IMG/VR virus record: IMGVR_UViG_3300006754_000075 | Coordinates: 1 to 31,686 of that record | Source: a virus | Strand: one strand, 5' to 3' | Length of the DNA stretch: 31,686 bases | In this document: one piece after another, positions 22,944 through 27,920 of the stretch | How the letters are laid out: each line of letters opens with the position of its first letter | How positions within the stretch are numbered: position 1 is the stretch's first letter | Made by a program: the position numbers and the translations under genes | Notes under the pieces: model-generated | Told to the model about the DNA's origin: nothing | Databases searched by the model: none | What the model saw: the letters and a program-made list of their open reading frames with translations, nothing else

Positions 22944-23273
22944 ATGACAGAAACAGACCTACTAAGAGATCGGATTGCATCTGTATCTCAAAAAATCATA
23001 CGCCTATGGGGCGAGCCTGCGCAACTTGGGATGATGGTTGAGGAGTGCGGCGAATTGATTGTCGCAATACACCATTACTCGCGCGGTAAATGCTCCAAGG
23101 GCGATGTGCTATCAGAGATCGCCGACGTTATGATCGTCGCGGGGCAACTATCAGAAACATTCGGAGAAGATGGCGAGGTTGAGGCGCTTATCGCGCAGAA
23201 ATTGAACAGGCTAGATCATAGAATTAAACATTCAGACGGGGCAGAACAATGGGCGCATATAAAGACTTCCTAG
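22944..23273 (+). CDS. MazG-like nucleotide pyrophosphohydrolase
   Basis: 109 aa all-alpha NTP-PPase. It hydrolyses NTP or dNTP to the monophosphate and pyrophosphate, cleaning the nucleotide pool or lowering (p)ppGpp-type signals during infection. The metal-binding pattern is clear: EECGE (33-37) and E58-x-x-D61 (SEIADVM), in the context GMMVEECGELIVAI and ADVMIVAGQLSETFG. The leader is GAGGGCAGACGATG. It overlaps the following helicase gene by 25 bp. Confidence 0.8.
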   Translation: MTETDLLRDRIASVSQKIIRLWGEPAQLGMMVEECGELIVAIHHYSRGKCSKGDVLSEIADVMIVAGQLSETFGEDGEVEALIAQKLNRLDHRIKHSDGAEQWAHIKTS

Positions 23274-25432
23274 ACAGAAAAGCAATCGCAGCGCCAGCGC
23301 GCGGGATCACAAGGATCGAGGGGCTATCTTCTGAGCTATTCGATTTCCAGAAGAGGATTGTAGACTGGGCACTATCTAAGGGCCGCGCCGCTATATTTGC
23401 GGACTGCGGACTCGGCAAAACATTCATGCAACTAGAATGGGCGCGACATGTGCCTGGAGACGTCCTAATCCTGACACCGTTAGCAGTTGCGCAGCAGACA
23501 GCATCGGAGGCTCGGCGGTTTGGAATAAGCGCAGCCGTTAGTCGGGACGGTAAGAAGGCGGCGCCGATTACGATTACGAATTACCAACAGCTTCACAAAT
23601 TCGACCTTTCAGAATATAGCGGGATCGTATTGGACGAGAGCAGCATTCTGAAGAGTTACGACGGAAAGACCAGAACAGCGATAATAGAGGCGTCTTTGGC
23701 GCTTCCTTTTCGGCTTGCATGTACCGCAACCCCAGCCCCAAACGATCACATGGAGCTTGGAAACCATGCGGAGTTTCTTGGAGCGATGAGCCGCGCGGAA
23801 ATGCTCGCAACATTCTTTGTTCACGATGGCGGCGAGACTTCAAAATGGAGGCTAAAGGGACATGCCGAGGATGACTTCTGGAAATGGGTATCAACGTGGG
23901 GGGTCGCGATAAAGACGCCAGCCGATCTTGGATTTCCTGCGCAAGGCTTCGACTTGCCAGAATGTAATATCATCGAGCATATCGCGGAGAGCTCTTTTGA
24001 ACAGGATGGCGTGCTTTTCCCGACAGCCCTATCCTTGACGGATCTCCGAGCGGCGAGAAAAGCCAGCCTTGAGAGCCGCGCTCAGATAATATCTGACCTT
24101 GTAAATGACAGCGATGAACAATGGCTGGTTTGGTGCGATCTGAATGCCGAGGGCGACGCGCTATCCACGTTCATCCATGGCGCAGTACAGGTGAGCGGGA
24201 GCGATAAGGACGACGTGAAGGCAGAGAGGATGATGGCGTTTTCACGTGGAGAGATCCGCGTTCTAGTTACGAAGCCACAGATCGCCGGATTTGGAATGAA
24301 CTGGCAGAACTGCCACAACATGGCATTTGCTGGGCTCACTCATTCATATGAGAGATTCTATCAGGCCGTTCGCAGGTGTTGGCGCTTCGGGCAGGATAGA
24401 TCGGTAAATGTGCATATTGCGCTTTCTGAACAAGAGTTACCTGTATTGGCGAGCATTCGCAGAAAGGAAAGAGACGCGGAGATCATGGCGTCATCAATGG
24501 TTGAATATATGTGCTCCATGGATGATTGGGGCGGACTATCAAGAACAAAGGAAACTTACATGGAAGATAGAGAGATCGGACAAAATTGGGCGATGTATAA
24601 CGGAGATTGCGTTGAGGGCGTATCAAAGATGGATGATGATTCTGTTCATTATACCGTCTTCTCTCCTCCATTCTCATCGCTATACACCTACTCAGCGAGC
24701 ACCAGAGACATGGGGAATTGCAGAAATCACGCGGAATTCTTCGAGCAGTTTGGGTTTCTGGTTTCGGAGTTGCTTCGAGTTACAATGCCTGGCCGCCTGT
24801 TGTCTTTTCACTGCATGAACATACCCACGTCGAAGGCGAAGGACGGTGTAATAGGTCTATCCGATTTTCGAGGGGATCTCATTCGCGAGTTCATGGAGGC
24901 TGGGTGGATATATCATTCTGAGGTTTGCATCTGGAAAGATCCCGTAACTCAAATGCAAAGAACAAAGGCGCTCGGCTTACTCCACAAACAGATAAAAAAA
25001 GACTCTTGCATGAATCGCCAGGGGCTCGCTGATTACCTCGTCACAATGAGAAAGCCAGGAGACAACCCCGAGCGAGTTGAGCACACAAACGAGACATTCC
25101 CAGTAGGGCTTTGGCAGCGGTACGCCTCGCCTGTATGGGATGACATAAACCCAAGCAACACTCTACAATTCAGGTCTGCCAGAAGTGAAAAGGACGAGCG
25201 CCACATATGCCCGCTACAACTCCAGGTTATACGGAGAGCCCTAAAACTCTGGAGCAACCCCGGCGATCTGGTTCTATCTCCATTCGCAGGGATAGGGTCT
25301 GAGGGTTATGTTGCGCTTGAAGAGGGCCGCCAGTTTGTGGGCTTCGAGTTGAAGCGTGAATATTACGATCAAGCGTGCAGAAACCTTGCAGAGGCAGAGT
25401 CTGAAGATATGCAAGATGATTTGTTCGCATAG
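23249..25432 (+). CDS. SF2 helicase fused to DNA amino-methyltransferase
   Basis: 727 aa. N-terminal half: SNF2/DEAH-type translocase with Walker A GLGKT (54-58), Walker B LDESS (128-132; D129, E130), motif III-like TATP (159-162) and motif VI QAVRRCWRFGQDR (372-384). C-terminal part (about 440-727): Rossmann methyltransferase with motif IV SPPF (472-475) and, further on, motif I SPFAGIGSEG (677-686), so a motif IV - I order as in the beta class. SPPF favours N4-cytosine or N6-adenine transfer. No nuclease domain is visible. It probably modifies phage DNA against restriction, with the translocase assisting; a role in replication is possible. Confidence 0.85.
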   Translation: MGAYKDFLDRKAIAAPARGITRIEGLSSELFDFQKRIVDWALSKGRAAIFADCGLGKTFMQLEWARHVPGDVLILTPLAVAQQTASEARRFGISAAVSRDGKKAAPITITNYQQLHKFDLSEYSGIVLDESSILKSYDGKTRTAIIEASLALPFRLACTATPAPNDHMELGNHAEFLGAMSRAEMLATFFVHDGGETSKWRLKGHAEDDFWKWVSTWGVAIKTPADLGFPAQGFDLPECNIIEHIAESSFEQDGVLFPTALSLTDLRAARKASLESRAQIISDLVNDSDEQWLVWCDLNAEGDALSTFIHGAVQVSGSDKDDVKAERMMAFSRGEIRVLVTKPQIAGFGMNWQNCHNMAFAGLTHSYERFYQAVRRCWRFGQDRSVNVHIALSEQELPVLASIRRKERDAEIMASSMVEYMCSMDDWGGLSRTKETYMEDREIGQNWAMYNGDCVEGVSKMDDDSVHYTVFSPPFSSLYTYSASTRDMGNCRNHAEFFEQFGFLVSELLRVTMPGRLLSFHCMNIPTSKAKDGVIGLSDFRGDLIREFMEAGWIYHSEVCIWKDPVTQMQRTKALGLLHKQIKKDSCMNRQGLADYLVTMRKPGDNPERVEHTNETFPVGLWQRYASPVWDDINPSNTLQFRSARSEKDERHICPLQLQVIRRALKLWSNPGDLVLSPFAGIGSEGYVALEEGRQFVGFELKREYYDQACRNLAEAESEDMQDDLFA

Positions 25433-26032: not shown

Positions 26033-27046
26033 ATGAACCTTGACGATCACATATTCGACTTCGACACCTTCGACAGGGCGTCAGGACTGGGCGGAACCGA
26101 CGCGGCTGCTATCATGGGGCTTCACCCGTACAAGACCGCGCTAGACGTCTACCTGAATAAGCACGGCGAAGGAGCGCCGTTTAAGATGAATGACGCGGTT
26201 ATGATGGGGAACAAGCTCGAGCCTATTGTGGCGGATCTCTATTATGAGCGCAGGGGGCTAGCCTCAGACGCGCGCGGGCTGAAGATGTACACCCCCGGCA
26301 CAATCCGCCATCCTGATCACCCTTGGGCGTATGGCAGCCCAGACCGGATCCTATTCGACCAGAAAGAGGGCCGCTGGTTCTGGGGTCTCGAGGTCAAAAC
26401 AACCGGCATTAGAAGTGAGCACAGATGGGGCGAAACTGAATCAAACAAATATCCACAAGAGCACCTCCTCCAGTGCGTATGGTACATGTGGATCACGCGC
26501 GCTATGTGCAAGCTCCAGGGATTCGACCCGATCCAGCATTGGGATCTTTGCGTGCTCATAACCGGGCAGGAGTTTCGCCATTATCGAATCCACCACGATC
26601 AAGAGATAGAAGATCAGCTCGTGGAAGCGGCGCGCGAGTTTTGGCACGATTCGATCAAGGGCAACAGCCCGCCCGATCCCGTGTCTCGCGACTCTTCAAA
26701 CCTTGTCCGCCTATGGCCCAAAGATGAAGGCTATATGCTCGAAGCTAACGAGGACCAGCAAAAACTGATTAGGCAATATCAAGTTATTGATTCGCAGATC
26801 AAAGAGCTAGAAACCCAGCGCGACGAAGTGAAGACGGCGATCAAGTGTATCATTGGAGATGCGTCAGGAATCGAGGCGGATTGGTTTTCGATTACCTGGA
26901 AGGCGCGAAAGCAATCAAGGCGCACCGACTATAAGGGGCTGATCAAAGCCATAAACCCAGCTCTCGAGCTGATTGATCAATACACTAAACTTAACGCGGC
27001 GCAACGCCCGTTCTTAGCTAAATTCAAAGGGGCAGACAATGAGTGA
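26033..27046 (+). CDS. YqaJ-like 5'-3' exonuclease
   Basis: 337 aa. In YqaJ-type (lambda exonuclease-fold) enzymes the 5' strand of dsDNA ends is resected to give ssDNA for an annealing protein. Seen here: GGTDAAAIMGL (about 20-30), GNKLEPIV (59-66), GSPDRILFD (101-109; D104) and GLEVKTT (118-124; E120, K122), the PD-(D/E)xK core, followed by QEHLLQCVWYMW. It is paired with a RecT gene eight bases into its end. A charged coiled coil lies near the C-terminus (about 235-270). The leader AAAGGGCAACCAATG is of the shared type. Confidence 0.85.
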   Translation: MNLDDHIFDFDTFDRASGLGGTDAAAIMGLHPYKTALDVYLNKHGEGAPFKMNDAVMMGNKLEPIVADLYYERRGLASDARGLKMYTPGTIRHPDHPWAYGSPDRILFDQKEGRWFWGLEVKTTGIRSEHRWGETESNKYPQEHLLQCVWYMWITRAMCKLQGFDPIQHWDLCVLITGQEFRHYRIHHDQEIEDQLVEAAREFWHDSIKGNSPPDPVSRDSSNLVRLWPKDEGYMLEANEDQQKLIRQYQVIDSQIKELETQRDEVKTAIKCIIGDASGIEADWFSITWKARKQSRRTDYKGLIKAINPALELIDQYTKLNAAQRPFLAKFKGADNE

Positions 27047-27920
27047 AATTGTGAAATACCTACAAGGCAAACAGACGGCAATTGCAGCGATGGCGAAGCG
27101 GCTAACCGCGCGCCAGATGATCCAGGCGACCTCAATCGCCATCCACCAAAACGCGGCGCTGGCTAAATGCTCGAAGGAGTCTATATACGAGGCCGTGCTA
27201 CAAGCGGCGCGGATGGGGCTGGATTGCTCGGGGTTGCACGGTCATGGCTATCTTGTCCCATACGGGCGTAAGTGTACCTTTGTGCCAGGCTGGCGCGGGC
27301 TTATATCAATCGCCATAAGGTCAGGAACGGCGAAGACGATCAAGGCAAACGTGGTATTCAAAAACGATGCCTTTGACTGGGACGAAGGGCTAACCCCAAA
27401 CCTTATTCACAAGCCAAAGATTGACGGGCCGCGCGGGGAGCTGATTTGCGCTTACGCCATCGCGTACTTTGAAAGCGCCGATCCTCAGTTCGAGGTTATG
27501 ACCCGCGAGGACATCGACAAGATCGCGAAGGATAGCCGGTCAGACTCATGGCGCAACCACTTCGCGGCGATGGCTCGCAAGTCTGCAGTTCGTCGCCTGT
27601 GCTCGATGTTGCCGCGCTCGCTTGAGCTTGATGACGCCTTAGACCTGGAGATCGCTGGTGAGGTCGGGCGGTCACCTTCTGAGCTTCTCAGGATTGAAGA
27701 GCCCGAGGCGTTGACGGCTAACCCGGTCAACACCGTTGACGACGTGAAGAAGAAGATCAGGAAGAAACGCGCGCCTAAGAAAAAGAAATTCGAGATCACA
27801 GAAGAGCCCCCAGCGGCGGAGCCTGATGCTAATCTTGGAGACGTGATCGCGCAAAACAACGCGGCGCTAATCGAGATGATTCCAGAAGATCCATTCACTG
27901 AAGATGACGTGCCATTCTAA
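27039..27920 (+). CDS. recT: RecT single-strand annealing protein with SSB-like C-terminal tip
   Basis: 293 aa. It anneals complementary ssDNA produced by the exonuclease. RecT hallmarks: 'LQAARMGLDCSGLHGHGYLVPYG', 'FVPGWRGLISIAIRSG' and 'SWRNHFAAMARKSAVRRL' (about 54-186). Residues 237-250 form a Lys/Arg-rich linker, followed by an acidic, Pro-rich tail ending EDPFTEDDVPF (283-293), which closely matches the acidic tip of bacterial SSB (DDDIPF type). No separate SSB gene is visible in the window. The tail may recruit the SSB-binding partners of the host. Confidence 0.9.
   Translation: MSEIVKYLQGKQTAIAAMAKRLTARQMIQATSIAIHQNAALAKCSKESIYEAVLQAARMGLDCSGLHGHGYLVPYGRKCTFVPGWRGLISIAIRSGTAKTIKANVVFKNDAFDWDEGLTPNLIHKPKIDGPRGELICAYAIAYFESADPQFEVMTREDIDKIAKDSRSDSWRNHFAAMARKSAVRRLCSMLPRSLELDDALDLEIAGEVGRSPSELLRIEEPEALTANPVNTVDDVKKKIRKKRAPKKKKFEITEEPPAAEPDANLGDVIAQNNAALIEMIPEDPFTEDDVPF

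Follow-up and report, generated by a model that had tools for sequence, protein, structure and literature searches.

The window, a viral DNA record of 31,686 nucleotides (IMG/VR IMGVR_UViG_3300006754_000075) analysed over its whole length, encodes on its plus strand a RecT-family single-strand annealing protein of 293 amino acids (27039..27920). The assignment relies on profile matches to PF03837 (RecT; 128.5 bits for a curated cut-off of 24, E 3e-37), to phrog_148, the PHROG entry for RecT-like annealing proteins (E 2e-60), and to LiRecT of Listeria phage A118 (7ub2, E 2e-34). An AF2 model with a mean pLDDT of 87, whose top PDB matches are LiRecT 7ub2 (E 2e-9) and 7ubb (E 1e-4), predicts a RecT/RAD52-like fold. 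Judged from its sequence, the protein is a RecT devoid of an OB-fold SSB domain and is otherwise ordinary, with a C-terminal SSB-type tip that is unusual and conserved.

A gene for a YqaJ/RecE-type exonuclease (26033..27046, plus strand; PF09588, E 3e-24; phrog_434, E 1e-68) lies directly upstream of recT in the window and in two related contigs described below, L003 and L030. Its product is presumed to be the partner of RecT. LiRecT and the E. coli Rac RecT share with the window RecT the PF03837 domain, the predicted fold and an adjoining RecE/YqaJ exonuclease. In contrast, their tails (...EVQGSMI and ...VIDNSEE, respectively) carry no SSB-like tip. The window also encodes, at 23249-25432, a 727-residue fusion of an SNF2/DEAD-type helicase and an N6/N4 DNA methyltransferase; its nearest proteins, at 57%, come from a Methanosarcinales virus and a cyanophage, and it ends in DDLFA, an end also found in L003. 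Terminase and helicase matches were too distant and too mixed to assign a host to the phage. Finally, the earlier note had seen no SSB gene in the window, and the scans agree with it. PF00436 (SSB) gives no match at E ≤ 1 in the window record, L003 or L030, all of which may be partial contigs, and none of the early genes is named as an SSB in PHROG scans.

The C-terminal tail of the window RecT

Beyond the annealing core, the tail is made up of three successive elements, all on the plus strand. The first is a Lys/Arg-rich patch recognized by its composition, KKKIRKKRAPKKKK (residues 237-250, 27747..27788), and a basic patch occupies the equivalent place in the RecTs of L003 and L030. It is followed by an uncharged or acidic linker (residues 251-282, 27789..27884), which is variable according to codon comparison and contains a predicted short helix at residues 266-280 (pLDDT 55-85 over the linker). 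The tail then closes with the acidic tip EDPFTEDDVPF (residues 283-293, 27885..27917). The TAA stop codon comes straight after Phe293 (27918-27920), and the tip has a free C-terminus. The earlier note had described precisely this end behind the Lys/Arg stretch, and that observation is correct. Altogether, residues 251-293 contain 12 Asp or Glu and no Lys or Arg. In the AF2 model, pLDDT values are 55-64 at residues 221-260, 74-85 in helix 266-280 and about 58-71 at the tip, whose docking is not resolved there. A compact C-terminal domain like that of Red-beta, which is helical and binds SSB and the exonuclease, is not predicted in this model, which shows only helices 222-226, 233-242 and 266-280 past the core.

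The end EDDVPF-COOH fits the SSB-Ct pattern, in which acidic and hydrophobic residues precede a Pro-Phe pair located exactly at the C-terminus. Bacterial SSBs, which end in DDDIPF in E. coli and in DDDLPF in Bacillus and Staphylococcus, likewise present an acidic run, a hydrophobic residue and a free Pro-Phe end after a linker, which is flexible in SSB and may be so in the window RecT. Unlike theirs, the window tip is borne by a RecT-fold annealing protein and not by an OB-fold SSB. A PDB search with the tip peptide doubled in tandem, an artificial query, returned no match. Among the 43 proteins called in the window (10,013 amino acids), the pattern [DE][DE][ILVM]PF occurs once, at the C-terminus of RecT. 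The probability of such a C-terminus arising by chance is 4.4e-6 per protein and 1.9e-4 per window; on this value, together with the conservation of the tip, a chance origin is rejected.

Conservation of the tip in the window clade

Scans of 2.9 million viral contigs returned L002, a 100% copy, and two true clade members, L003 and L030. Together with the window, these two make up a single clade with an SH-aLRT support of 97. Conservation within this clade is read from only three independent contigs. Searches for further members with an exact-tip DNA pattern, a clade RecT profile and a RecE profile gave the same three contigs and distant RecT/RecE relatives.

The RecT of L003 is 90% identical to that of the window in the alignment, and its tip is identical. 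Over the last 10 codons, the two genes differ by three synonymous and no non-synonymous changes, whereas in the linker 10 of the 30 aligned codons differ non-synonymously and indels are also present. The RecT of L030 is 58% identical to the window protein, with a linker about 35 residues longer, and ends in ADFTDEEIPF, where EEIPF again consists of an acidic run, an aliphatic residue, Pro and Phe. P292 and F293 are kept in both relatives while the remaining tail drifts. Since the same end is found in the independent contigs L003 and L030, as well as in L002, a sequencing or frame artefact is excluded as the source of the tip.

A constraint acting on the nucleotides was also considered, namely an overlap of the acidic codons with the Shine-Dalgarno sequence of the next gene. 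The GAGGAG of the L030 tip resembles a Shine-Dalgarno sequence and stands about 8 nt from a TTG start, which makes this cause possible there. No such resemblance exists for the corresponding codons of the window (GAA GAT GAC) and L003 (GAA GAC GAT), where the Shine-Dalgarno-like AAGGGGG sits at and beyond the stop codon; the overlap is rejected for these two.

SSB-like ends in other RecTs

Conservation of the tip among RecT relatives, on which the earlier note had dwelt, is found at the level of the clade (DDVPF in L003, EEIPF in L030) but not at that of the family. RecTs at or below about 40% identity mostly have other tails, so that the tip is rejected as a general RecT-family motif. As most RecTs lack the tip, annealing can do without it.

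RecTs were counted across viral contigs and genomes in a census of 394 open frames, 385 of them complete with a full enough domain, grouped in 44 clusters at 50% identity; Bacillaceae are over-sampled in it and some of the scans were seeded with tip-bearing RecTs. An acidic-PF end occurs in at least 5 of the 44 RecT clusters. Of the 1685 control-gene clusters, 12 have such an end, and SSBs account for several of these 12; the comparison ignores relatedness. The clearest independent tips are those of the window clade (DDVPF/EEIPF), of Bacillaceae (NEEPPF, SEEPPF) and of an actinobacterial Bet-like group (SEYDIPF, PEDIPF), and the SSBs of the actinobacterial host end in YDDDIPF. L203 (ENDPF) and L155 (AELPF) are weak cases. 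On a tree of 128 RecT cores, the tip-bearers are well separated and at least six changes of tip label are required on strongly supported branches. Thus, acidic-x-PF tails appear to have arisen repeatedly in separate RecT clades, most clearly in Bacillaceae and actinobacteria. An ssb gene is adjacent to 1 of the 60 RecTs with such tails, compared with 20 of 135 (p 0.005, uncorrected for relatedness and from a partly tip-seeded sample); this rarity is as expected if the tip replaces a phage SSB.

Other endings were met during the survey. A second, non-acidic RecT ending, GPxF or GPxW, is found in four RecT clusters and in none of the 1685 control clusters (L232, L254, L256, L258, L273, L278, L279, L291 and several of L410-L429). 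In phage loci, SSB-like tips also end frames that do not look like SSBs: frames of about 300 residues in L170 and L424 (DDSDLPF), minus-strand frames of 110-166 residues in L183 and L074 (DEDDLPF/SDEDLPF), and 89-residue frames in L271 and L272 (NNEDVPF/NKEDVPF). L438 (1171-2640) shows the customary arrangement, in which a separate protein bears the tip: after a distant relative of RecE come a frame resembling Rad52/22-type annealing proteins and then a 168-residue frame ending in DDIPF that resembles, by eye, a DUF669-like phage SSB.

In Bacillus phages, as in the window, the RecT body is followed by an SSB-tail-like end (for example in L235 and L243). RecTs of two types, YqaK-like and LiRecT-like, carry the tail DPFDGKPVDISDDDLPF plus one residue, a near-copy of the host SSB tail DPFANDGKPIDISDDDLPF. 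Compared with the window, the likeness to the host protein is far longer, the RecT tails DPFDGKPVDISDDDLPFD matching the host tail well past the generic tip, but the Pro-Phe pair is not terminal. Indeed, the host SSB ends in NDDPFANDGKPIDISDDDLPF, whereas the two RecT types end in ADPFDGKPVDISDDDLPFD, with one extra residue, D, past PF, replaced by N or DD in other RecTs. The tail is missing from Listeria RecTs, such as that of A118, which share about 64% identity with the LiRecT-like type of Bacillus. At the 3' end of recT in L128 (6890-6940) and L046, the SSB-like tail runs into extra residues (LPFPLRSASPSVTSG; DDDLPGLRLVRISGMTALCKRK), apparently through frame changes joining a conserved downstream reading frame.

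A further difference from the window is that the Bacillus tail is common to unrelated bodies through DNA exchange. The cores of the two types have only 62 of 274 aligned positions in common (23% identity). Nevertheless, the last 78 nt of the L235 and L243 prophage genes are identical at 77 positions, within a shared block that starts about 80 nt before the stop codon, which is the start of the tail, and extends at least 400 bp downstream at 92%. L107 and L359 repeat this pattern at 95%. Similarly, the Bet-type RecTs of L249 and L250 and the unrelated L252-type RecTs (L252, L405) have DNA in common from 36-42 nt before the stop; this DNA encodes ALxEEPPF and continues through at least the next 600 bp at 88-92%. 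Since the shared DNA begins just upstream of the tail, RecT bodies have been exchanged with a junction right before the SSB-like tail. This exchange may reflect selection on the tail or the linkage of the tail to the downstream genes. Direct capture of host ssb tail DNA is unsupported, because the block is identical to a host ssb at only 31-32 of 42 nt, which suggests either mimicry or an old capture.

Possible roles of the tip

The conserved tip set against a drifting linker, the recurring tails and the Bacillus near-copies of the host SSB tail point to docking of SSB partners. They support in part the suggestion of the earlier note that the tip could recruit host RecO, PriA, ExoI or others. 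The most likely reading, with chances that we consider about even, is that the window RecT carries a putative SSB-Ct-like docking peptide for SSB-interacting proteins. From the tip, its conservation in the clade and its recurrence in other RecTs, we infer binding, partners and benefit as follows. RecE would resect the DNA, and the exposed strand would then be coated by RecT instead of SSB. Along the RecT filament, numerous and presumably flexible tips would go on presenting the signal normally presented by SSB. Readers of the SSB tip, from the host or from the phage, could thereby still be brought to DNA that RecT has coated or annealed, or be kept there. Their tasks might include the priming or restart of replication, or the completion of recombination.

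Phage annealing via an SSB C-terminal tip has precedents. Sak4 of phage HK620 requires the NDYPPF tip of the phage's own SSB (PMC5928155), and Sak of phage 80alpha and its SSB cooperate through both C-termini, the SSB tip being needed (PMC11846896). In these two systems, the tip belongs to a separate phage SSB and is read by the annealing protein, whereas in the window it belongs to RecT itself and no ssb gene was found. The C-terminal residues 225-271 of LiRecT, unresolved in its structure, have been suggested to touch partner proteins, SSB among them (PMC9772228); in the window RecT, this region bears the SSB-like tip. In the open-licence literature, an annealing protein with such a tail was found in DdrB of Deinococcus radiodurans alone, a protein whose fold is unrelated to that of the window RecT.

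Several observations speak against docking. In the Bacillus tails, PF is followed by one or two further residues and Phe is not the last, whereas PriA recognizes the terminal carboxyl, an Arg of PriA adjoining the alpha-carboxyl of the last residue (PMC5531588). Radioresistance was found not to depend on the SSB-like motif at the C-terminus of DdrB (PMC3834827). The GAG GAG tip codons of L030 may be a Shine-Dalgarno sequence, the tip is absent from most RecTs, and the window clade is known from three independent contigs. More tentatively, and less likely than not, the docking reading could be widened to a whole class of phage annealing proteins, both recurrent and exchangeable, with host-matched SSB tails, whose filament would pass as SSB to the host interactome. 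The window RecT would be one independent origin of this class, with the exact tip, and in Bacillus the tail would stay while unrelated bodies are swapped.

As known annealing proteins bind the SSB tip, a serious alternative, which the earlier note did not consider, is that RecT has an SSB-tip site of its own and that its tip occupies this site within one subunit or on a neighbouring one. RecT would thereby be kept closed off DNA, or its subunits tied together, until SSB tips compete the RecT tip off, with loading only where SSB sits. Red-beta, which reads the SSB tip whereas the window RecT carries one, binds the 9-residue tip at about 10 uM (PMC7496540), and the requirement of Sak and Sak4 for an SSB tip goes in the same direction. 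So does herpes ICP8, in which subunits contact one another through a flexible C-terminal tail bearing an FNF motif (PMC12409425). In addition, the basic patch beside the acidic tail within one protein permits an intramolecular contact. Against this, the presence of the same Bacillus tail on bodies only 23% identical favours a partner outside the RecT body, and neither a separate Red-beta-like C-terminal domain nor a docked tip is evident in the model. We judge such self-binding unlikely, although it survives better than the readings that follow.

It is improbable that charge alone matters, with the tail acting as a DNA mimic on the Lys/Arg patch or in the DNA groove, so as to tune single-stranded DNA binding or protein turnover, and with PF being incidental. 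The accumulation of acidic residues directly after a 14-residue basic patch would suit this role, many tip-less RecT tails are likewise acidic, and acidic C-termini autoregulate other nucleic-acid-binding proteins, for example that of Hfq (PMC5606850). However, charge does not account for the retention of P292 and F293 in L003 and L030, nor for the strong enrichment of PF and GPxF/W ends in RecTs over control genes. Least probable of all is a tip of little or no function, like the DdrB motif, or one set by the Shine-Dalgarno sequence of the next gene: the DdrB precedent, the codons of L030 and the small number of relatives would fit, but the tip codons of the window and L003 are not of this kind, they have changed only synonymously, and tips have arisen repeatedly in other clades.

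Annealing proteins are the workhorses of recombineering. Their poor portability across species was reportedly tied by Filsinger et al. in 2021 to recognition of the host SSB tail. If the docking of SSB partners by RecT tips is true, some annealing proteins would also address the host machinery as SSB does, and these tips may account for host range and help in choosing recombineering proteins that are portable. The main interest lies in the repeated origin of SSB-like tails among RecTs and in the way these tails behave as modules in Bacillus phages.
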